From assembly GCA_030426085.1 (NCBI GenBank), contig JAUHYW010000067.1, positions 1 to 60,040 on the forward strand: a stretch of 60,040 bases of DNA. Direction: 5' to 3'. A model generated the notes under the pieces. The model worked only from the letters and a program-made list of their open reading frames with translations, made no database searches and was not told where the DNA came from. Each line of letters begins with the position of its first letter. Position 1 is the first letter of the stretch. Below are positions 27,156 to 41,040 of this stretch, in pieces. A program made the translations under genes and the position numbers. This stretch comes from a bacterium. Lineage in GTDB: Bacteria; Myxococcota_A; Bradymonadia; UBA7976; UBA1532.

Positions 27156-27980
27156 TCAATCGACGACGCCGCCTTCGCCGATGACCGGCAGCAACGGGCG
27201 GCTGAAGCCGATGTCGTCGCCGTAGAAGTAGCGCAGGATGTCGGCGGTCTCGTAGCCGAGGTTCTCGGCGAGGCACACCGCGGCGTACTGGGCGAACGCC
27301 CCCCGGTTGGTGGCCCGCTTCGGGGCCATGGGCGTGTGCTGCACCGCCGCGCCCCGCCGCCCCTCGTTGCGGGTCACGACCACCTCGGTCCAGCTCACGC
27401 CCCCGAACCGGGCCCGGATGCGCGCCCGTCGCCGCCGGAGGTACTCCCGGCGCATGGCGTCCCACGAGGCATAGCCCGAGTAGCCCTGGGCCTTTGGCGG
27501 CTTCGGCTGACAGTCAATGGACAGCTTGCGCGCGCCGCTGACGTAGTTGGCGTCGATCAGCCGCCCGTCGACGTGCAGCACCGTGCCGGCGGTGTGGCGG
27601 GCGGCGTCCTGAGCCCGGGTCCGCTCCGGCGGGGCCCAGCACTGGAAGCGGGGGCCGATCGGGACCTCGGCGTCGGGCCCCCGCCGCTCAAGGTAGCGCC
27701 CGAGGTAGGTCCGGGCCAGCACCGCGAGCGCCTCGAGCGCCGCGTGGGCGTCGGTCAGCGGGGCGAGCTCGCACTGCACGACGCCGGCGATGTAGACGTC
27801 CTCCACCGGCATGATGCCCCGCTCGGTGTCGATGCAGCCGGGCAGGGGGCTCTCCGGCCGGGGCGGGTGCATGGAGCGGCACTCGCCGAGCGTGACGAAC
27901 GCGGTGGGGGGGGCGCCGCCGCACGCGGCGAGCAGCAGCGCGATCAGGGCGAAGAGTCCCGGTGCGTACGGGCGCGGCAT
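27156..27980 (-). CDS. SpoIID/amidase-enhancer-like lipoprotein
   Basis: A 274-residue lipoprotein; the signal MPRPYAPGLFALIALLLAAC ends in the anchor Cys. The SpoIID-type core begins VEDVYIAGVVQCELAP, where the Glu matches the catalytic residue of SpoIID lytic transglycosylase, followed by ALEALAVLARTYLGRYL. TAGTVLHVDGRLIDANYVSGA corresponds to the second conserved block. SpoIID acts on peptidoglycan glycan strands that have lost stem peptides; relatives in non-sporulating bacteria help cell division or septal wall turnover. The ATG shares a base with the stop of the upstream Cys-rich lipoprotein (TGATG), so they are coupled. The third block is divergent, which leaves activity uncertain. Confidence 0.75.
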   Translation of the reverse strand: MPRPYAPGLFALIALLLAACGGAPPTAFVTLGECRSMHPPRPESPLPGCIDTERGIMPVEDVYIAGVVQCELAPLTDAHAALEALAVLARTYLGRYLERRGPDAEVPIGPRFQCWAPPERTRAQDAARHTAGTVLHVDGRLIDANYVSGARKLSIDCQPKPPKAQGYSGYASWDAMRREYLRRRRARIRARFGGVSWTEVVVTRNEGRRGAAVQHTPMAPKRATNRGAFAQYAAVCLAENLGYETADILRYFYGDDIGFSRPLLPVIGEGGVVD

Positions 27981-30931
27981 CAGCGCTCGGGCTGGGGTTC
28001 GGGCTGCGGCTCGGGATCCACCGGATCGGGGGGCGGGCCGATCTGCTCGGCGCACAGCGAGAAGCCCTCGATGTCGCAGCGGTCCGCCAGGAACCGGAAG
28101 ACACACTCGAGCTGCTCCTCGATCTGGGGCGCCCCCTGGCATCCGATGATGCACTCCTCGAAGTCGCCGTCGGCCAGCCCGCATTGGAAGAGCACATTGC
28201 AGGCCCCTTCGCAGTCGACATCGGGCACCGGCGGCAGGTCGAAGCAGGCCGCCCCCTCTGCCGCGCAGGCGACCGGGTCATCGGCCACGCCGTCGAGGCA
28301 CCGGCCCACGTCGTCGAGGTAGGTCCGCGGGACCCGGGGGTCGAGCAGCGCCGCACTGCAGCGGTCGATGCAGGCGGCCTCCTCGGGGAAGGCCCCGCAG
28401 CCCACCGCCCTGTCGCAGACGTCGGCGCATCGCCTGGCCGGCCCGCTGTTCAGGATGCACTCCGCCAGATCGGGGCACGACAGAGCGTCGCGGCACTCCA
28501 GCGTGTTCGCCAGGGCGCCGTTCGGGTCGCGCTGCAGGGTGTTGACGCAGCTCGATGTGCAGTCCCGGATGCTGTCTTCCAGCTCGCCGCACCGCCCGCG
28601 GGCCTCGCACAGAGCGGCGCAGGGGGCGAGCGCCTCCGGGTCTCCCGGGCGACCGCCGAGGCACAGGTCGATCACCAGGAACGGATCGGGCGGGCAGGGG
28701 GAGATGGCCTGCTCGACGCAGCGCAGGGTCGCGTCGTCGGGGGCGAACTCCTGGATCAGGAGCTGGCAGGGGAAGAAGTCCTCGAGGCCACACGCCCGGT
28801 AGTCGGCGCACAGCGCCACGACGTCCACCGGCGGCGGCACTTCGCCTTCGGGATCGACGTAGCACGCCATCGCGACGTCGCAGTCGGCCGCGTCGGCGAG
28901 GCACTCGACCTGGGTGACCGCCCGCAGCCGGCTCAGCGGGTCTTCCGGGCAGGCGGCCCCGCAGTCGGCCGGGGCCGCGTCGCACGCGGCGAGTGGATCA
29001 CACCACGCCGGGCAGTCGACCGCCGGCGCCTCGGGGATGCAAGCCTCGAGCGGGGCGCACGCGCCCGCCGGGTTCGCCCTCTCCAGGCACTCCCGGGCCT
29101 CGAGGAACCGCAGCCCCTCGTCGCCCACGAAGCCCTCACCGCAGCGCACGAGGCAGTCCACCAGCGGCTCCACCGCCTCGATGTCGCACCCGGTCTGCGC
29201 CCGGCAGTACCCGAGGCACGCCTGCCCCGCGGCGTCGGGGCTGCCGGCGCAGGTCGAGACCGGGGACAGCCCCGCCGTGCACAGGGGCGCGGTCAGCACG
29301 CAGGCGGTCCGCCGGGCGGCGGTCAGCGGATCGGCGAAGCTCTCGTCGTCGCACAGGGCCTCGCAGTCGAGCGGCGCGATGCGGCACAGCGCCTGGCGCT
29401 CGCAGCGCTCGGCGCAGCCCATCGGCAGGCCGGGATCGCAGAGGGCCATGGCGTCGCAGTCGTCGCCGGCGTCGTCGACACACGTCCGCAAGGCGCCCTG
29501 TCGGGCCCGGAAGTACAGCGTGTCGCAGCGCTCGGCGCAGTCCGCGTCGGCGAGCCCGCAGCCATCGAGCGCGGCGCAATGCGCGGCGCAGGCGCTGACC
29601 GGGCTGTTGTCGACCAGGCACTCGCTCAGCTCGTCGCAGGTCCGGGCGATGCCGCACGGGAACAGCGCCCGCTGACGCTGCGCGCTCTCACCGTCCCGCC
29701 CCTGGATGGCCTGACTGCACTCTTGCAAGCACTCGAGCTGCTCCTGCCCGTCGGGCAGCATCCCGCAGACGCCGCGGGCCTCGCACAGCTCGGCGCAGCC
29801 CGGCCCGAGCTGGCCGTTGGGGTTGCCGAGGCAGGCCTCGAGCGCGAAGAACGGGTCGTCGGGGCAGCCGTTCTGGAGTTGGGCGACCACGCACTCGGCG
29901 AAGCCGGGCTGATCCTGGGCGATGAACCACAGCTCATCGCAGGGGAAGCCGAACTGCGCGCCGCAGGGATCCCACGCGGCGCACAGCGTCGCCCGATCGA
30001 CCTGCACCGGCCCGGCCTGGGGGTTGAGGCACTCGTCGGCCCGGCGGCAGTCGTCCCCGACGCGGTTGATGCACTGCGTGCTCTGGCGCCCGCGCAGGCG
30101 GGCGAGGGGATCCTCGAGCGAGGCCTCGCCCACGCACGCTTGCAGGCAGCCCTCGGCCCGCTCGAGGTTGCAGGCGACGGAGACCTCACAGCGGCTGGCG
30201 CAGGCGGTGTAGACCGAGTCGCCCAGGCAGCTCCAGAAGCCGTCTCCGTCGCACACATCCCCGACGAGCGCCTCCCCGCACAGCGCGAAAGGCGGCGCCT
30301 CGGGATCCCCGCCGTCGCGGTCTTCGCACTCGGCCGGGCAGTCGGGGAAGGGCAGCTCGAGGCCACAGCCATCGGCCGCGACGCAGACCTCGTCGCAGGT
30401 GAGCGGCGGCGGGTCGGGCAGGCGGCAGACCTGGAGCAGCCGGCAGTTCTCCTCGAATTGCAGGCAGGTGAACCAGTTCTGAGGCGGTTCGCGGCGCGAG
30501 GCGCGGGCGCAGGCGTCGAGGCAGGCGTCGTAGTCGCCGAAGATGTCCAGCCGCTCGCACGCCGCGACGCGTCCGCAGGCCGTCTCACAGTCGTCCACCG
30601 CGCAGGCTTCCACCCCATGGCACTCGCGGTCGATGCAGTCGACCGCGCCGTCCCCATCGTCGTCGACGCCGTTGTCGCAGATCTCGGCGGGGGGCGGCGC
30701 GGCGTCCCCCGGCGCCATGTCCGGCGCGGCGTCGGGGGGCGCGGCGTCGGGATCGGGCTCGGGCTCGGCGGCGTCCGGTTCGCTGCCGTCGGAGTCGGGG
30801 CCGACGTCCCGCACGGTGCCATCGATCTCGACGGTGCCGTCCGCCGTCTCGGGGTCCGAGCCGTCGTCGGGTACGCAGCCGACGAACACTGGGATCAACG
30901 CGACGAGCAATCGGGCGCGATGGGTGGTCAT
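27980..30931 (-). CDS. Giant cysteine-rich lipoprotein
   Basis: A 983-residue lipoprotein with about 105 cysteines by hand count, nearly 11 %. The signal ends at VFVGC (Cys19). A Pro/Asp/Ala-rich linker runs to about residue 84, followed by an acidic EICDNGVDDDGDGAVDC unit. The rest is a chain of disulfide-type modules of about 45-65 residues, roughly C-x3-C-x5-C-x6-C-x3-C-x15-20-C-x7-C-x4-C. Residues about 314-500 and 704-897 are an internal duplication, sharing ALCEARGxCG, SCPDLAECI/TCDELSECL and matching PCPPDPF/GCPDDPF blocks. A P-E-P-Q repeat ends the protein. GGAGGAG precedes the ATG. It is probably a rigid cell-surface stalk or scaffold; no family is recognised. It is divergent from the GHKL giant. 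Confidence 0.85.
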   Translation of the reverse strand: MTTHRARLLVALIPVFVGCVPDDGSDPETADGTVEIDGTVRDVGPDSDGSEPDAAEPEPDPDAAPPDAAPDMAPGDAAPPPAEICDNGVDDDGDGAVDCIDRECHGVEACAVDDCETACGRVAACERLDIFGDYDACLDACARASRREPPQNWFTCLQFEENCRLLQVCRLPDPPPLTCDEVCVAADGCGLELPFPDCPAECEDRDGGDPEAPPFALCGEALVGDVCDGDGFWSCLGDSVYTACASRCEVSVACNLERAEGCLQACVGEASLEDPLARLRGRQSTQCINRVGDDCRRADECLNPQAGPVQVDRATLCAAWDPCGAQFGFPCDELWFIAQDQPGFAECVVAQLQNGCPDDPFFALEACLGNPNGQLGPGCAELCEARGVCGMLPDGQEQLECLQECSQAIQGRDGESAQRQRALFPCGIARTCDELSECLVDNSPVSACAAHCAALDGCGLADADCAERCDTLYFRARQGALRTCVDDAGDDCDAMALCDPGLPMGCAERCERQALCRIAPLDCEALCDDESFADPLTAARRTACVLTAPLCTAGLSPVSTCAGSPDAAGQACLGYCRAQTGCDIEAVEPLVDCLVRCGEGFVGDEGLRFLEARECLERANPAGACAPLEACIPEAPAVDCPAWCDPLAACDAAPADCGAACPEDPLSRLRAVTQVECLADAADCDVAMACYVDPEGEVPPPVDVVALCADYRACGLEDFFPCQLLIQEFAPDDATLRCVEQAISPCPPDPFLVIDLCLGGRPGDPEALAPCAALCEARGRCGELEDSIRDCTSSCVNTLQRDPNGALANTLECRDALSCPDLAECILNSGPARRCADVCDRAVGCGAFPEEAACIDRCSAALLDPRVPRTYLDDVGRCLDGVADDPVACAAEGAACFDLPPVPDVDCEGACNVLFQCGLADGDFEECIIGCQGAPQIEEQLECVFRFLADRCDIEGFSLCAEQIGPPPDPVDPEPQPEPQPER

Positions 30932-31047
30932 GGGTCTCCTCCATTGCATGACACGACTCGTGGATAGCACGAACCGGGGGGCGGCGGCAGGCCACAAGGG
31001 CGTCGGCTGCGGTTTCATCGGGCGGGCCGGTGGGGCATCCTGGCTCC

Positions 31048-34000
31048 ATGGATCTGGCCGCCCTCGCCCGCCGACCGCTCGCCGAGCAATGTGCCCGGCT
31101 CGCTCGCCTGATCGACCCGACGCCCCCCCCGGGCCTGCTCGCTGCGCTGGCCCGCTGGCCCGACCCGGCGCCGCTGGCCCACGCGATCGAGCGGGCCCTC
31201 GCCGGCGGCTGCGTGCCCCCCGACCTGGCCCCGGCGCTGGCCGCCGCGCCCGACGCCCACCTGGGGCGCGTCCTGCGGGCGCTGCCCGGAGACCACCCGT
31301 CGAGCCTCCGGGCGCCGTTGATCGACCGGGTCGTCGAGGCGCTGGACGCCTTGCCCTTCGAGCGGGTGGCGGCGGCCTGCTTCCTGCTGCGGTGGATCGG
31401 CCGGGCCGACCCCGAGCGGGGCGCGGCGCTGGCCCGGGACGCGTTCGAGGCCGCCCGGGCCGCGGTGGCCGTCGAGCCCGAGGCGATCCCCGACGCGACG
31501 CTCCTGCGGGTGCCCGGCCGGGCCTGCGCCGAGCTGACCCGGGCGGCGAGCCGGGCGGGGCACGCCGCCCGGTGGCAGGCCCGCTCGAGGGCGTTCGCCG
31601 CGGCGACGCTCGCCGGGCTCCAGAGCCAGCCGAAGTCGCTGTCCCAGATGGGGGCCGAGGATCTGTTGTCCCAGCGGGTCTACACCGACCCGGGCCACTT
31701 CCTGATGGAGCTGATCCAGAACGCCGAGGACGCCGACGCGCGGACGTGGCGGCTGGCGGTCGAGCCCGAGCGGCTGGTGGTCCGTCACGACGGCGTGCCG
31801 TTCGACGCCCGGGACGTCGTGGGCGTGCTGTCGATCGGCCAGACGACCAAGTCGGCCGCCCGCATCGGCTTCTTCGGGGTGGGCTTCAAGTCGGTCTATG
31901 CCATCACCGACCGCCCGCGGGTGCGCTCGGGCCCGTTCGACTTCGAAATCGCCGATGTCAGCATCCCCCGGCGCATCGATGATCCCGAGGTGGAGCAGGG
32001 GACCCGCCTCGATCTGCCGCTGAGGGCGCCCGACGACCCCCGGCTGGGCTGGCGGGCCATCGCGACGCGGGCCGAGGGGCTGCCGGCGGCCCTGCTGCTG
32101 ACCCTGCGCCACATCCGCCGGATGGAGGTCGAGGTCGGCGGGCGCAGCCGGATCGTGGAGCGGGTCGAGACGGGCGCCCCGGGCGAGGTGCTGCTGCGCG
32201 ACGGCGCCGACGGGGCCCGCTGGCTGGTGCTCGGCGAGTCGGATCCGGTGGACGGTACGCTGGTGGCGGTGCCGCTCGATGACCAGGGCCAGCCGACGCC
32301 GATGCCCGCCGGGGCCCCGACCGTCTTCTGCTTCCTGCCCACCCGCGATCGGCCGGGGCTGCGGATCATGGTGCACGCCCGCTTTCCGCTGCCGGTCGAC
32401 CGGGAGCGGGTCGACGTCGGCGCGCCGAAGACCCGGGCCGCGCTGCGCCGGGCGGGCGCGCTGCTGTTCGAGGCCGCCGAGCGGGCGCATCCGTGGGCCG
32501 TGCTGCGGCTCCTGCCCCTGCCGGGGGAGGTGCAGCCCCCGATCTGGGAGGACGTGCGGATCGGGTTCGCCGAGGCGGCCGGCGCGCGCCCGTGGATCCC
32601 GACGCCGGGCGCCGGTCGGGTGGATCTGGCCCGGGCCCGGCGCGCGGAGGCGGCGCTGGCGGCGGCGCTGGGCGACATCGCGCTGCCCGACGGCGGGCGC
32701 CCGATCCACGCCCCCGACGCCCGGGCCGACGCCATGCTCGCTGCGCTCGGCGCGCCGCGGTTGACGGCTGCCGACTTGATCGAGCTGATCGACCACGCGG
32801 CGGGCGCCGGCCGGGCCGAGCACCTGACCTCGGCGCTGCCCGAGATCCTCGCGGCGCTGGCCGCCGCGCCCGAGCTGAGCCGCAACGCGGACGCGTGGGC
32901 CGACGCGCCGATCGCCCTCGACGCCCACGGCGCCTGGCGCCCGCCCCGCGCGCTGGCCCGATGCCCGGCGCGCCTCCGACCGTTCTTCGCCCACCGCCCG
33001 CTGCTCGCGCCCGCCCTGGACGACACGCCCCGCCTCGCGCCGCTGTGGATCGCGCTGGGCCTCGTCCGGCTGGATGACGCCGCCGTGGCCGACGCGCTGC
33101 GCGACCGGGAGACCGGGCCGGCCATCTGCGCCCGGGTGCCGGCCGGCGTCCTCGAGTGGATGGCCGACCAGCCGCCGGACCGCCTCGTCGGGCTGAGCCA
33201 TCTGGTGGTCGTGCCCGACGAGCGCGGCGCCCTGCGCCCGATCGCCGGCGGGGCCGATCTGCCGCCGGTGGGGCCGCTCGCCGCCTGGGCCGAGCGCTGG
33301 CCCCGGGCCCGCTCGCCGCTGGTCGCCCGCTCGATCGCCGAGCGGTTCGGCCCGACGCTGCTCGCGCTCGGCGCCCGGCGCCTGGACATCGGCCGGCTCC
33401 TCGACGGGGTGGCCGGGGCCGGGCCTGTCCCTGCCGGCTCGGCGCTGGACGCGCTGCACGGCGTGCTCGATCGGCTGGCGGCCGACCTGAGCCCCCGGCT
33501 GGCCGAACGCCTCGCCCGGGCGCCGATCTTCACCGATGTGCACGGCACCGACCGGCCTCTGAGCGGCCCGCGGCGGGCGATCGTGGCCGAGTCGGACGAG
33601 CTGCGCAGCTTGCTGCCCGACGGGCCGTGGCTCGTCGACGGCCTGCGGAGGGCCCGGCACGTCGCGGTGATCGACCCCCCGACCGTGGGCCCGCTCGACG
33701 CGGTGCGGGGTCTGTTCGAGCCGTCGGCCGCGCTGTACGCCGAGCCGGGCAGCGCGCGCTGGCGCCGGCTGGTGGCGTGGGCGATCGCCCACGGGCCGCC
33801 GCTCGACGACGCGCTCAAGAGCCGCCTGCGCGCGGCGCCGATCTGGGCCGGCGGGGATCAGCGGGCGCCGCTCGATGCGCTGCGCGCGCGGCCCGAGAGC
33901 TCCGCGTGGGCCACGCTCTACGACACCTGGGATCGCTGGCCGCCGCCCACCGACGAGGCCCGGGCGCTGTCAGCGGCGCTGGGGCTCGCCGAGCGGGGGG

Positions 34001-37000
34001 ACGCGGGCCGGCGGCTCATCGCCGATCTGAAGTGGATGCACACCGAGGATCCGCACGGGGCGTGGCTCGACGGGCCGGCGCTGCCCGAGGCGCTGGCCGA
34101 GCTCGGCCGGCGCTCGGAGCCCGACGCGCTGCGCCCGCTGGCCGAGCTGGCGATCCACCCCGACGCGGCGGGCGCGCGGCGGCCCCTCGGCGACGCGCTC
34201 CGGTCCGATCCACCGTGGCGGGCCATCCTGGCCGACGGCGCGCGCCCGCTGCTCGACGCGGGCTGGCAGGCGCGGATCGAGCCGCTGCTGGAGCGCCTGA
34301 GCGTCCCCCGACACGGCCTCGAAGCCGCGGTCGCCTTCGCCGAGACCGATCCGGCGTTCCCCGAGGCGCGCGACGCGCTGAGGGCGGCCCTCGCCGACGC
34401 GGGCGGCCCGTGGGGTGCGGGGCTGACCGGCCGCATCTCGGCGCTGCCGCTGTGGCCCTCCGACGGGCGCTTCGTCCCAGCCACCGCCGTCGTGCCCCCC
34501 GGCCGGCTGGGTGCGCTGGCCGGGCTGCCGGTCGGCGCGCTGGCGGCGCAGGTTGACCCCAGCGCCGCCGAGCAGGCCGACCGGCTGGCCGACGCGCTCG
34601 ACTTCGCGTCCGTCGGCGCGCTCCTCGCCGAGCGGGTGGCAGCCGAAGCCGTGGCCGGCGAGCCGCTGGACGCGCAGGCGCCGTGGCTCTCGTCGGTGGA
34701 GGCCGTCGCCGCCGTGCGCCGGGCGCTCGTGGCCGAAGGCCAGGCGATGGACGCGCTGCCGCTCCGGGTCGACCTCGACGGGCGGCTGGTCGTCGGGCCG
34801 CTGTTCGACGCCTCGCGCGACGTCCGGCATCTAGTGGGTCGTCCGCGAGATCCGCATGACGATTCCACGGCCCTTTCACCCCCGCTCGGCGTTGGTTCTC
34901 CTCGACGTGCCCCTGGCACGCCTTCGTCGGCCCGCCTTGATCGGGGTCGAAATGACTCGCGGGCTCATCACGCGGACTTCGCGTCCGCCCCACTGGCCGC
35001 CCGCTTGCCGATCCGGGCGCGTATCACCCACGCCGACGACCCCGGCGGCGCGCCGCTGCCCGCCCGCTGGCTGCTGTCCGACCTGGCCGACGCGCAGCGG
35101 GAGGCGGGCCCGATCGACGATCACCCGGTCCTCGCCGAGCAGAGCGCCCGACGGGCGCTGTATCGCTGGATCGAGGCCGTCGCCGACGAGATCGAGGCCG
35201 ACGAGCAGGCCCGCGGGCAGCTCGGGCGGGCGCCGGTCTGGCCCACGACGGGCGGCACGCTGCGCGCCGCGCGGGAGCTGATGCCGGTCGATGATCCGCT
35301 GGCGGACGACGCCGCGGTGGATCCGGCGCTCGACTGGGTGCCGGCGGACGAGATCCCCGCCGAGGTCCGCCGCCGGCTCCGCGGGTGGTTCCGGCTCGAC
35401 GCCCGCCGGCTGCGCACCGCGGTGGAGCACCTCGTCGACGCCCACCGGCAGATCGACGATCCCGCCCGCTCGGCCCGGCTGCTGACCCTGCTCGCCCGCC
35501 TCCTGACGGCGGCCGAGAGCGAGGAGGCCCCGCTCGACGCGCTGGTGGCCCGCTTCAAGCTGCATCGGCGGCTCAAGGTGGCCGACGCCGACGGGCGATT
35601 CGACCGACCCAAGGCGCTGCTCGCGCCGACCCAAGCCGCTCAAGCCAAGCGGATCGCGCTGTTTCACCCCGACCCGCCGCGCCGACCGCACCCGGCCTAC
35701 CCCGAGGCCGTCCGACGCTTGCTGCGGGCGGCGGGCGCCGATGTCGACCTCTCCGATGACGCCTTGAGCGCGGCCCTCGACGCCCCGGTGCCCGGGCTCG
35801 ACGCCGGCCTCGCCCGGGTGGCCTACCTCGGCGCCCGGGCGGCGGATGCGCCGGCGCTGATCGAGCGGCTCGATCTCGGGGCGCGCCCCTGGCTCTTCGA
35901 TCGCGACGGGACGCCGTGCGCGCCGGCCGATCTCGACTGGCCCGATCCCGATCTGGACGCGCTCATCGGCTCCGAGGGCGGGCGGCGGCCCCACCCGGCG
36001 GTGGTGCACGGCCTGCCGCCCGCCGTGCTCGCCCGGCTGCCGGTGCGGACCGCGGCCGACGCCGATCCCCACGCGGTCGCCCGGCATCAGCCCGAGGGCA
36101 CGCCGTTGCCGATGGCCGTGCTGCGCTGGTTCGACGACGGCCTCGACGCGCGGCGCATCCGCCCCGACGACGCCCGCGCGGCGCTCGCCGGGCGCCGGAT
36201 CTTCGGCGCCGACGACGGGCGCTGCCGCCCCCCCGAGGCCCTGGTGCGCGATCTGCCCGCCCCCGGCCTCGGACGCCGCCGGAGCGGCTTCTCCGACGGG
36301 CGCCCCGTGCCCCGCCTGATCGGCGCGCTGGGTATCCCGGCCACGCCCGACGTCTCGGTGTGGCTGGGGCTCGCCGAAGAGATCGCCGCCGACGCCCGCC
36401 GCGCCGACCTCCTGGCCGACGAGCCCGAGCTGCGCGAGGTGCTGCCCCGTATCGTGGGCCGGCTCGCGCTGGCCGGCGCCTCCCGCCCGGCGGCGGTCCT
36501 CGCGACGACGCCGCGGGGCGAGCGGATCGTACCGATCGATGATCGCGCGCTCACGATGCCCTGGCCGCCGACGCTCGCCGCCGCAGCCGGCCCGGCGGAC
36601 CTCGCGCTGATCGCGCTCGACGCGCCCCCCGAGTCACTGTCGAGCGCCGCCACCCGTTGGGGCGTCCCGACGGTCGAGGCCCGCTGGCGCCCGTCGTCGA
36701 CCCCGGCCCCGGCGGGGCGACCGCTGCCCGATCTCACCCGGACATTGACCGATCTCTGGGCCCGTCTGCCGCGCGTGCTCGACGGGGCGCCGGGCGATCC
36801 ACCCACCGCGCGCGAGGTCGCCGACGCCGACGCCCCGGGCCGCATCGGGCGGGCGAACGTGCCCTGGCCCCGCACCGCGCGGTGCGTCGACGGCGTGCTG
36901 TGTGTCGCCGAGGGCGCCGGCGCCGACGCCATCGCCGACGCGCTGTGGCGCGACCGCCTGCGCCCGGACGACGCGCCGACCGAAGCCGTCGCCCGGCTCG

Positions 37001-38619
37001 CGCGCCTGATCGCGTGCGGGCACGGCGCGGCGATGGATCTGCTGCTCGACGCGGAGGGTCTCCCCCGGACGGGCCCGCCGCCGCGACCGACCCGCACGAC
37101 GAACCCGATGGAGGAGCCGGCCGCGCCTCCCCGCTCGACCGCTCCACGCTCGGCCGTGGAGCCCGCATCCGCAGAGCCCGAGACCCCGCCGCCCGAGCCG
37201 CCGGCCGCCGAGCCCGCACCCGACGAGGACCGCCTGCTCGACCGGCTCAAGCGCTGGTGGCGTGGCGATGAGCCGACCCATCCGCCGCGTCCCCCGGATC
37301 CGCCCACGCCCCGGCGCCCCGAGCCGCCGCGCCCCGATCCGCCGCGTCGGCCTCCGCCCCGGGCCCCGCAGCGCGACGACGACCCCGGCTTTCAGCCGCC
37401 CGATACGAGCCGCTTCTTCCAGCCCCAGCGCGCGGTCGAGCCTCAGCTCCGCGCCGATCCCAACTGGCTCGCCACCCGCCAGACCGCGACCGATATCGGC
37501 TTCGCCTTCGCCCCGGGCCGGCTGGCCGGGGTCCACCAGTACGGGCCGGCGCTCATCACCGACCGCTTCGATCCCCGCAGCCGCCGCTGGGTCGCCGCCG
37601 CGATCGACCCCGAGTGGTCCGCGCCGCCCGCCGGGGGTGGCTTCCGGGTCGCGTTCACCGGGCGGCTGCCCACCGGCGAGGCCGCGCTGGCGGTGCCGCT
37701 CTTCGGCCGGGTGTCGGCGCTCGACGCGCCCGACGCCCGCCGCTTGACGCGCGACGAGGCCCGCCCGCTGCTGGTGATGCCCCGCCCGACCGACGTGCGC
37801 TACACGGTCGACCTCGCCCGCCCGCCGCGCTACGTGGACGCCGATCCGCCCCGCGTCGCCGGCCTGCTCGCGCCCACCGCGCCCGACGACGAGCTGCCCG
37901 CCGAGTGCCACGATCTGCTCGGCGGCCTGCTCGACGCGCCGCCGCGGGCCCGGCTCTCGGGCATCGGCCAGTTCGTGCGGCGGCACTATCGCTACGACCC
38001 GAGCTACCTCGAAGACCCGGCCCACGCCCGCTGGCTGCGCCGGGTGACCCGGGGGCGGCCGAACGTACACCTCGCCGCGCTGCACGCCGGCCGCGACGGG
38101 CGGCACCTGGGCGCGGGGGTGTGCTACGAGCTCAACGCGCTGGTCTGCGAGCTGGCCCGGCGGGCGGGCATCCCCGCCGCGATCGCCACCGGCTGGACCT
38201 TCGATCGGGGGTGGATCGATCAGCCCGATCATCTGTGGGCGATGGCGCTGCTGGCGACCGGGGACGGGCCCCGCTGGATGCCGGTCGACGCCTCGACGAC
38301 CCACGAGGGCCGCCCGCTGCACGCGACGCCGCGCCCGCCGGGCCCGCACCGGGCGCAGGCGCCGCGCCAGGACCTCCGCCCGCCTCGCCCGGTGGATTGG
38401 ACCGACGTCGCGCCGCCGCCCGAGCGGCCCGGAGCCCCGCTGCGCGAGCTGCTGCGGGTCATCCGCCACGCGGAGCGGCTCGGCGAGGCGCCCGAACGGA
38501 GCGAAGCCGAGCGCCTCGCCGCCGCCCGAAGCCTGCTCACCGAGCCCGATCGGGCCCGAGCGCTGCTGGCGGTGCTCGACGGGGGCGGGGCAGGGGAGCG
38601 CGACCCGGAGGCCCGCTAA
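31048..38619 (+). CDS. Giant sacsin-type GHKL ATPase fused to a transglutaminase-like domain
   Basis: About 2523 residues with no signal peptide, so cytoplasmic. Residues 195-310 form a sacsin/NOV-type Hsp90-like (GHKL) ATP site: N-box FLMELIQNAEDAD, G1 HDGVPFD, and G2 IGFFGVGFKSVY, the family signature. A long Ala/Leu/Arg-rich region of sacsin-repeat-like alpha/beta sequence follows (about 310-2000). A Pro-rich linker (about 2007-2125) leads to a C-terminal transglutaminase-like fold. Its catalytic triad reads Cys2359 (GAGVCYELNAL), His2395 (PDHLWAM) and Asp2414 (MPVDAST). Such folds are thiol proteases, peptide-crosslinkers or deamidases. The fusion of nucleotide-driven clamp and thiol enzyme is unfamiliar to me. 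Residues about 1262-1316 come from an inserted cruciform element. GTG 31030 is an alternative start; neither start has a good ribosome site. Stress chaperone or defence roles are both possible. Confidence 0.85.
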   Translation: MDLAALARRPLAEQCARLARLIDPTPPPGLLAALARWPDPAPLAHAIERALAGGCVPPDLAPALAAAPDAHLGRVLRALPGDHPSSLRAPLIDRVVEALDALPFERVAAACFLLRWIGRADPERGAALARDAFEAARAAVAVEPEAIPDATLLRVPGRACAELTRAASRAGHAARWQARSRAFAAATLAGLQSQPKSLSQMGAEDLLSQRVYTDPGHFLMELIQNAEDADARTWRLAVEPERLVVRHDGVPFDARDVVGVLSIGQTTKSAARIGFFGVGFKSVYAITDRPRVRSGPFDFEIADVSIPRRIDDPEVEQGTRLDLPLRAPDDPRLGWRAIATRAEGLPAALLLTLRHIRRMEVEVGGRSRIVERVETGAPGEVLLRDGADGARWLVLGESDPVDGTLVAVPLDDQGQPTPMPAGAPTVFCFLPTRDRPGLRIMVHARFPLPVDRERVDVGAPKTRAALRRAGALLFEAAERAHPWAVLRLLPLPGEVQPPIWEDVRIGFAEAAGARPWIPTPGAGRVDLARARRAEAALAAALGDIALPDGGRPIHAPDARADAMLAALGAPRLTAADLIELIDHAAGAGRAEHLTSALPEILAALAAAPELSRNADAWADAPIALDAHGAWRPPRALARCPARLRPFFAHRPLLAPALDDTPRLAPLWIALGLVRLDDAAVADALRDRETGPAICARVPAGVLEWMADQPPDRLVGLSHLVVVPDERGALRPIAGGADLPPVGPLAAWAERWPRARSPLVARSIAERFGPTLLALGARRLDIGRLLDGVAGAGPVPAGSALDALHGVLDRLAADLSPRLAERLARAPIFTDVHGTDRPLSGPRRAIVAESDELRSLLPDGPWLVDGLRRARHVAVIDPPTVGPLDAVRGLFEPSAALYAEPGSARWRRLVAWAIAHGPPLDDALKSRLRAAPIWAGGDQRAPLDALRARPESSAWATLYDTWDRWPPPTDEARALSAALGLAERGDAGRRLIADLKWMHTEDPHGAWLDGPALPEALAELGRRSEPDALRPLAELAIHPDAAGARRPLGDALRSDPPWRAILADGARPLLDAGWQARIEPLLERLSVPRHGLEAAVAFAETDPAFPEARDALRAALADAGGPWGAGLTGRISALPLWPSDGRFVPATAVVPPGRLGALAGLPVGALAAQVDPSAAEQADRLADALDFASVGALLAERVAAEAVAGEPLDAQAPWLSSVEAVAAVRRALVAEGQAMDALPLRVDLDGRLVVGPLFDASRDVRHLVGRPRDPHDDSTALSPPLGVGSPRRAPGTPSSARLDRGRNDSRAHHADFASAPLAARLPIRARITHADDPGGAPLPARWLLSDLADAQREAGPIDDHPVLAEQSARRALYRWIEAVADEIEADEQARGQLGRAPVWPTTGGTLRAARELMPVDDPLADDAAVDPALDWVPADEIPAEVRRRLRGWFRLDARRLRTAVEHLVDAHRQIDDPARSARLLTLLARLLTAAESEEAPLDALVARFKLHRRLKVADADGRFDRPKALLAPTQAAQAKRIALFHPDPPRRPHPAYPEAVRRLLRAAGADVDLSDDALSAALDAPVPGLDAGLARVAYLGARAADAPALIERLDLGARPWLFDRDGTPCAPADLDWPDPDLDALIGSEGGRRPHPAVVHGLPPAVLARLPVRTAADADPHAVARHQPEGTPLPMAVLRWFDDGLDARRIRPDDARAALAGRRIFGADDGRCRPPEALVRDLPAPGLGRRRSGFSDGRPVPRLIGALGIPATPDVSVWLGLAEEIAADARRADLLADEPELREVLPRIVGRLALAGASRPAAVLATTPRGERIVPIDDRALTMPWPPTLAAAAGPADLALIALDAPPESLSSAATRWGVPTVEARWRPSSTPAPAGRPLPDLTRTLTDLWARLPRVLDGAPGDPPTAREVADADAPGRIGRANVPWPRTARCVDGVLCVAEGAGADAIADALWRDRLRPDDAPTEAVARLARLIACGHGAAMDLLLDAEGLPRTGPPPRPTRTTNPMEEPAAPPRSTAPRSAVEPASAEPETPPPEPPAAEPAPDEDRLLDRLKRWWRGDEPTHPPRPPDPPTPRRPEPPRPDPPRRPPPRAPQRDDDPGFQPPDTSRFFQPQRAVEPQLRADPNWLATRQTATDIGFAFAPGRLAGVHQYGPALITDRFDPRSRRWVAAAIDPEWSAPPAGGGFRVAFTGRLPTGEAALAVPLFGRVSALDAPDARRLTRDEARPLLVMPRPTDVRYTVDLARPPRYVDADPPRVAGLLAPTAPDDELPAECHDLLGGLLDAPPRARLSGIGQFVRRHYRYDPSYLEDPAHARWLRRVTRGRPNVHLAALHAGRDGRHLGAGVCYELNALVCELARRAGIPAAIATGWTFDRGWIDQPDHLWAMALLATGDGPRWMPVDASTTHEGRPLHATPRPPGPHRAQAPRQDLRPPRPVDWTDVAPPPERPGAPLRELLRVIRHAERLGEAPERSEAERLAAARSLLTEPDRARALLAVLDGGGAGERDPEAR
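34831..34996. mobile_element. MITE-like 166-bp imperfect palindrome inserted in frame
   Basis: The ends are about 30-bp imperfect inverted repeats: GTGGGTCGTCCGCGAG from 34834 against GTGGGGCGGACGCGAA read from the other strand at 34993, with 22 of 29 positions identical. Inner arms continue (CCACGGCCCTTTCACCCC on the left), and a perfect CGTGCC-CCT-GGCACG hairpin sits exactly at the centre (34906-34920). The segment is less GC-rich and encodes Ser/Thr/Asn/His-rich sequence foreign to the flanking Ala/Leu/Asp-rich protein. No clear target duplication remains. There is no transposase, so it would have moved in trans or is a REP-like relic. Confidence 0.6.
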
Positions 38620-38681: not shown

Positions 38682-39335
38682 TCACTCGACCGGCTCGAGC
38701 GCCTCGATCGGCACGTAGTACTTCGCGTAGCACTGCCCATCCGAGTACCGCCGCCCGCCGGGGTCGGGGACCAGCACCGTCGCCCGCCGGGTGATGCGGT
38801 TGACGACGCCCTCGTGCACCCGGCGCCCGGCGCGGAAGCGCACCCGACTGCCGACGCCGACGCCCAGCGCCTGCCGGGCCCGCTCGTGGGGCGTGACCAG
38901 CTCGTGGGTCGCCTCGGTGTGGCCGAAGAAGCCGTGCACGAAGCGGGCGAAGGGCCGCCCGCGGCAGTTCGACGCCTGCCACACCAGGAACTCGCACAGG
39001 TGGATCAGCTCGTGCTCGAAGATGCGCAGCAAGGCGTCCAGCCGATCCTCGCAGCGCACGCCGCAGACGTTGATCGCCCGCGCCTCGCCGCGGAACGTGC
39101 CCCCGAGCAGCGTCGCCGAGACCCCGATCGAGAACCGCCGCTCGACGCCGCTCGGCCCCCGGCGCTCCTCCCGGCGGGTCATGCCGCCCGAGCGGATCAT
39201 GCGCCGCGACACGTCGAACGTCAGCGCGCCGCCGGTGGGCCCGTCGAGCGCCTCGCGCATGGCCCCGTCGAAGAAGCGGGCGTCGTAGGCCTCGAAGAGC
39301 AGCGCCAGATCCGACGGCACGATCCGGTGGAACAT
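38682..39335 (-). CDS. SprT-like zinc metalloprotein
   Basis: About 217 residues. The zinc site is IFEHELIHLCEFLVW, an HExxH helix (HELIH), with the supporting helix LALLFEAYDARFFDG at the N-terminus as in SprT/Spartan-type proteases. The rest has a beta-rich C-terminus (GVGSRVRFRAGRRVHEGVV) that may be an SH3-like fold. Substrates are unknown; SprT-like proteins cleave DNA-protein crosslinks in eukaryotes, while bacterial ones are poorly studied. The start is uncertain: ATG 39335 begins just before the conserved helix, and GTG 39449 would add about 38 residues. Neither has a ribosome site. It converges on the GHKL-transglutaminase giant. Confidence 0.75.
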   Translation of the reverse strand: MFHRIVPSDLALLFEAYDARFFDGAMREALDGPTGGALTFDVSRRMIRSGGMTRREERRGPSGVERRFSIGVSATLLGGTFRGEARAINVCGVRCEDRLDALLRIFEHELIHLCEFLVWQASNCRGRPFARFVHGFFGHTEATHELVTPHERARQALGVGVGSRVRFRAGRRVHEGVVNRITRRATVLVPDPGGRRYSDGQCYAKYYVPIEALEPVE

Positions 39336-39346
39336 CGGTCGGTTGA

Positions 39347-41040
<1,694 letters not shown>

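Follow-up and report, generated by a model that had tools for sequence, protein, structure and literature searches.

A giant bacterial protein joining a sacsin-type GHKL ATPase, a repeat array and a transglutaminase-like domain: an apparently undescribed family

Introduction

One giant gene in the window, by which we mean the whole 60,040-nucleotide stretch of bacterial DNA that was analysed, encodes a sacsin-type GHKL ATPase, a long repeat array and a transglutaminase-like domain in a single chain, with conserved active-site residues and no recurring partner genes. This chain represents a real and apparently undescribed family, because about two dozen rare relatives show the same layout. Two enzyme folds are joined here in one protein, a combination that we have not found reported. 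The preliminary description of this DNA likewise knew of no system of this form, and our search agrees, although most subscription journals lay outside it, which makes the agreement weak evidence. The reading that we favor, with a probability of roughly 0.4, is that a stand-alone, ATP-switched capture arm brings a client to a cysteine acyltransferase or protease within the same chain, most likely inactivating foreign (e.g., phage) proteins. With this family, the poorly understood ATPase cycle of sacsin-type proteins could be followed in a bacterial model by a simple enzymatic assay; if the role is defence, the GHKL systems would gain an effector that modifies proteins covalently.

Gene and domain architecture

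The open frame comprises 2,523 codons without an internal stop (Table 1). Both domains that the preliminary description had placed in this ORF gave Pfam matches above the curated cut-offs, and the catalytic residues Cys2359, His2395 and Asp2414 as well as the G-box GFFGVGFKSVY lie exactly where it had put them. Its estimate of about 1,800 residues between the two enzymatic modules proved too small: the SACS match ends at 296 and the transglutaminase match starts at 2352, a distance of about 2,050 residues that is largely occupied by the repeat array. The gene has a GC content of 78% and long antisense ORFs are common across the window, as would suit a frame that is open by chance at high GC or two genes fused by misassembly. 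However, the architecture is shared by 17 other complete ORFs aligned over their full length, including that of the isolate Paraliomyxa miuraensis. Relatives with identical architecture rule out such an artefact, to which we assign a negligible probability.

Neither a transmembrane helix nor a signal peptide was evident in the window protein, whose highest 19-residue hydropathy mean is 1.39 and whose start is not signal peptide-like; the protein is probably cytosolic. We also considered whether its lysine depletion reflects self-protection from the transglutaminase, an idea that was dropped since several other genes of the GC-rich window are equally lysine-poor.

Table 1. Features of the giant gene and their positions in the window
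Feature	Position	Strand	Basis
Whole giant gene, 2,523 aa, stop included	31048..38619	+	open frame; full-length relatives
Family-specific helical N-terminal domain, aa 1-190	31048..31617	+	profile in most complete relatives; helical in model
Sacsin/Hsp90-type GHKL ATP-binding domain, aa 195-375	31630..32172	+	profiles, alignment, model
N-box E221/N225	31708-31722	+	invariant motif
G-box, aa 274-284	31867-31899	+	motif GFFGVGFKSVY
DRER, aa 451-454, invariant; candidate catalytic arginine loop of Hsp90-like middle segment	32398..32409	+	alignment; comparison with sacsin R474
About 13 diverged alpha/beta repeats of ~105 aa, aa ~500-1880	32545..36687	+	profile self-alignment, unit positions, secondary structure of first half
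Family-variable insert in array, near aa 1250-1320			
Pro-rich variable linker, aa ~2005-2110	37060..37377	+	composition, alignment
Beta domain ahead of transglutaminase core, as in TgpA, aa ~2120-2260	37405..37827	+	model; 6g49 match over model residues 17-324
Transglutaminase-like core, aa ~2263-2430	37834..38337	+	profile, alignment, model
Cys2359 codon	38122-38124	+	triad
His2395 codon	38230-38232	+	triad
Asp2414 codon	38287-38289	+	triad

The ATPase end

The window protein is a member of the sacsin-type GHKL ATPases, as the preliminary description had it. The SACS profile (PF25794, Pfam) matches residues 212-296 (1.2e-11; 45.3 bits against a cut-off of 32.8), and P_loop_sacsin (NF047352, NCBIfam), the model of the sacsin N-terminal ATP-binding domain, is matched more strongly still (3.4e-22; 78.7 bits, cut-off 50). 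SACS was present in all 18 complete relatives scanned. The N-box reads E221-L-I-Q-N225, and in the alignment of 18 complete sequences E221, N225, G249, G274, G277, G279 and K281 are invariant, with D248 nearly so. Searching the PDB with the single protein sequence returned sacsin chains as the only matches. The best solved match of the N-terminal structure model is sacsin SR1 (5v44; Z 14.6, rmsd 2.7 Å over 164 residues), while the N-terminal and middle domains of Hsp90 match over a longer stretch of 250-275 residues with Z of about 14. In the Hsp90-like middle segment, D451-R-E-R454 sits where Hsp90 and sacsin have the catalytic arginine loop, and it may be equivalent to the catalytic arginine position R474 of sacsin (PMC9880540).

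These two best fold matches of the ATPase bring up protein quality control as an alternative role. Sacsin has been described as a chaperone-like protein (PMC9880540, PMC3710099), and the giant protein might similarly be a sacsin-like chaperone equipped with its own thiol protease, which would bind misfolded or aggregating proteins along its array and nick or degrade them upon clamp closure.

The transglutaminase end

At its other end, the window protein belongs to the transglutaminase-like superfamily, possessing both the core fold and the Cys-His-Asp triad. The profile match expected by the preliminary description is present, with Transglut_core (PF01841, Pfam) at residues 2352-2415 (2e-8; 34.9 bits against a cut-off of 23). 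Relatives at 27-78% identity retain the triad: none of the 25 aligned sequences departs from Cys2359 or His2395, and Asp2414 has a single exception (L063). Neither of the outcomes that were to refute the preliminary description, a missing transglutaminase hit or an unconserved triad, came about. Searching PDB sequences with the C-terminal profile brought no useful match. The C-terminal structure model (pLDDT 89.9) found as its best solved matches by Foldseek the periplasmic domain of TgpA (6g49 and 6g4h; E 8e-8 and 1e-7), with a Z of 15.8 and an rmsd of 4.0 Å over 254 residues, the next match having a Z of 8.7; it matches transglutaminase folds as well.

What reaction such a domain performs may be read in two ways. 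Bacterial transglutaminase-fold domains are mostly read as peptidases. Those in giant conflict proteins in particular have been interpreted as protease effectors (PMC3710099). On the other hand, TgpA is the nearest relative of this module with a solved structure, and its periplasmic domain gave transglutaminase activity without calcium in a biotin-cadaverine assay (PMC3507681), which would suit a true transglutaminase joining Gln and Lys side chains of clamp-selected cytosolic proteins, i.e., crosslinking or amine modification in cell development or structure. We regard this role as improbable, given the prevailing peptidase reading, the membrane-bound and periplasmic position of TgpA as opposed to a window protein showing no transmembrane segment, and phylum labels among the relatives that differ in a way that does not suggest a common developmental programme.

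The repeat array

When the array profile was aligned to itself, off-diagonal matches appeared at shifts of about 106, 205, 311 and 416 residues (best E 7e-36). Seeds placed unit starts near 501, 598, 699, 795, 902, 1009, 1107, 1365, 1476, 1589, 1690 and 1801, with weaker matches from the later units; the total of about 13 takes in a unit near 1220 that is visible as a motif only. The structure model of the array covers its first half. Among other sacsin-type proteins, kinship of the array was indicated for a Rhizobium plasmid protein only, and weakly (whole-sequence E 0.008), with nothing convincing for a Sulfuricurvum protein and no match for that of genome G003.

Between the window and its sister species, the array diverges faster than both enzymatic modules. 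Its first and second halves are 45% and 56% identical, compared with 70% for the GHKL region and 79% for the transglutaminase region; the N-terminal domain stands at 55%. Neighbouring genes are also better conserved (Cys-rich lipoprotein 66%, SprT-like protein 75%, MBL 81%, SpoIID 85%, GuaB 87%). An array that changes faster than everything around it speaks against quality control. To judge from these sequence comparisons, its divergence fits a recognition surface, and relaxed constraint could also be its cause.

Relatives and distribution

Using the C-terminal 421 aa of the window protein as the query against 58 near genomes, we found seven places outside the window's own genome, with 33-73% identity to the query; they lie in ORFs of about 2,450-2,990 aa, apart from one truncated by the end of its contig. 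When 84,980 species genomes were scanned with a profile, 25 loci emerged, mostly in Myxococcota, a lower bound because the scan depends on short conserved patterns; some of them overlap with the 58-genome search. Locus labels include Myxococcota, 'Deltaproteobacteria', Proteobacteria and plain bacterium, and further loci come from four Planctomycetota MAG records, one Candidatus Obscuribacter MAG and the named strain Paraliomyxa miuraensis. The only strong matches in 392 Planctomycetota genomes were three that were already known from the searches above. Phylum labels are mixed in the tree of relatives, and the family is likely spread over several phyla, to the extent that MAG phylum labels, which can be wrong, are to be trusted.

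The one-ORF union of GHKL and transglutaminase occurs in relatives of many genera. With few exceptions, complete ORFs hold the family's GHKL, middle and transglutaminase profiles in that order in one frame, and most also have the helical N-terminal profile. Two loci depart from this layout. The gene of L042 is distributed over several frames, and that of L063 (2744-11359) is interrupted by an in-frame TAG exactly where the GHKL part gives way to the array. L063, also the only sequence in which the triad Asp is not kept, may be a two-subunit form or a decaying gene. One genome (G056) carries two distant copies (L034 and L037), whose C-terminal regions are 49% and 33% identical to that of the window. 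A same-family genome encodes a 2,632-aa protein with SACS matches and neither array nor transglutaminase (L039:2577-10475, minus strand), adjoining two other very large ORFs.

Thirteen of the 379 Myxococcota genomes carry the array (about 3%), and it is therefore not a general quality-control factor. No array with a different effector was seen among these 379, and such constancy of the effector module favors quality control. The one apparent exception (G305, L102) was set aside, as it stops close to the edge of its contig and may contain a frameshift. Neither query found a relative in viral contigs, phage records giving GHKL-level matches only, and the C-terminal match was absent from plasmids; phage origin and plasmid spread were both rejected.

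Genomic surroundings

The window appears chromosomal, with DnaJ, PPDK, pyruvate carboxylase, GuaB and Lon recognised from sequence; it contains no tRNA. The order SpoIID, Cys-rich lipoprotein, giant gene, SprT-like gene and GuaB is the same in the sister species, and outside the genus the surroundings vary. The two neighbours to which the preliminary description had drawn attention, the lipoprotein and the SprT-like gene, are syntenic within the genus and did not turn up again at other loci. The former (27980-31018, minus strand), oriented divergently to the giant gene, resembles a lipoprotein and contains 105 cysteines; its match to an acidic double-disulfide repeat falls just under the cut-off. 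The latter (38682-39557, minus strand; FEHELIHLCEFL) encodes a putative metalloprotein, for which the label 'SprT-like' found no Pfam or NCBIfam match.

No partner gene recurs across the loci; flanking ORFs that resemble each other between loci form just one larger group, which matches protein kinases. No defence-island context was found at any locus. Generic protein-kinase models were the commonest defence-library matches of 84 flanking ORFs, whose Pfam matches are mainly metabolic genes. Such housekeeping surroundings favor quality control, as does one locus (L060) where an Hsp70-like gene (3-1940) on the same strand ends about 50 nt upstream of the giant gene. In the giant protein of this locus, and in that of no other relative, the transglutaminase core is followed by a Prok-RING_1-like Cys cluster (residues ~2738-2797). 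A link to quality control is possible there, but the Hsp70 neighbour is confined to this one locus.

Among plasmids, the nearest GHKL relatives adjoin helicases or a Qat system. On two rhizobial plasmids (L001:6669-13009 and L002:6668-16389), the gene directly after a helicase-related one encodes a sacsin-type GHKL protein of about 1,040 aa, in one case with a RecB-like nuclease behind it; the pair is possibly a defence operon.

Proposed mechanism and role

Judging from its complete conserved motifs, the sacsin/Hsp90-type GHKL domain would bind and hydrolyse ATP and act as the switch. The repeat array, by its size, repeat nature and fast divergence, is a candidate capture or recognition arm. 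Held on a flexible Pro-rich tether, the TgpA-like domain would form a thioester between its Cys and the captured protein, followed by cleavage or by modification or crosslinking. Through its ATP cycle, the switch may move the arm between open and closed states, restricting the enzyme to bound clients. The preliminary description had proposed an ATP-gated clamp with a thiol enzyme; this is supported in part, profiles and folds bearing out the domain assignments and single-chain layout, with ATP gating as a candidate property and a putative protease or crosslinker as the enzyme. It would be bolder, and in our view unlikely, that an Hsp90-type clamp whose array recognises specific foreign or damaged proteins, with a tethered transglutaminase that cleaves or crosslinks them, makes up a chaperone-enzyme of a kind for which our search found no bacterial precedent.

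By analogy, we slightly prefer a role in conflict or defence over protein quality control: TmtA and GHKL proteins beside defence genes are the nearest kin of the ATPase, the family is patchy (13 of 379 Myxococcota genomes) and the array is fast (first half 45%, against 70-79% for the modules and 75-87% for several genes nearby). Swapping of effectors is usual in conflict systems, whereas here the effector is always the same, and stable synteny with ordinary genes within the genus also argues against defence. Quality control stays close behind as a tentative alternative, because no defence neighbour was found and an Hsp70-like gene adjoins the giant gene in L060.

Comparison with known systems

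The window protein resembles sacsin in its GHKL fold and motifs, its giant chain, its Hsp90-like middle segment, where an Arg motif is invariant, and the long repeated region behind the ATPase. This last likeness is one of place; kinship of the array to the sacsin repeats (SIRPT) is no part of it, SR1 being the one region of sacsin represented in the PDB. Sacsin proper has three GHKL-bearing internal repeats together with DnaJ and HEPN domains. The window protein, in contrast, has one GHKL and ends in a transglutaminase; with a single SACS stretch, no ubiquitin-like domain found, and no DnaJ or HEPN among the Pfam matches of 18 members, it is not sacsin proper. It is not Hsp90 either: the HtpG/HSP90 models of NCBIfam score far under their cut-offs (20.6 vs. 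455 and 12.4 vs. 371 bits), and only the N-terminal plus a middle-like fold is found here, whereas full Hsp90 has middle and C-terminal dimerisation domains.

Tiamat (TmtA), an anti-phage protein that is likewise large and stand-alone, also has a sacsin-type GHKL ATPase at its N-terminus, and TmtA models match the ATPase region of all 18 complete members. In the window protein, the PADLOC match (E 1e-34) covers residues 151-496 of 2,523 and profile positions 31-385 of 1,486, whereas the remaining ~2,000 aa with array and transglutaminase have no match; since the match fails over the protein body, this is not Tiamat. The HEPN-helicase-transglutaminase giants proposed for defence (PMC3710099) are similar as one-gene giants with a transglutaminase-like peptidase. 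The ATPase here is of the GHKL type instead, no HEPN, SF-I helicase or Vsr nuclease occurs among the Pfam matches of the 18 members, and the window protein is not one of those giants.

TgpA (PA2873) of Pseudomonas aeruginosa shows the same beta domain followed by a transglutaminase core, with the same Cys-His-Asp order. The window protein is not of the TgpA family, having no evident transmembrane helices and no further Pfam domain: TgpA is an inner-membrane protein with its enzyme in the periplasm, whereas the enzyme here shares its chain with a GHKL ATPase and repeats.
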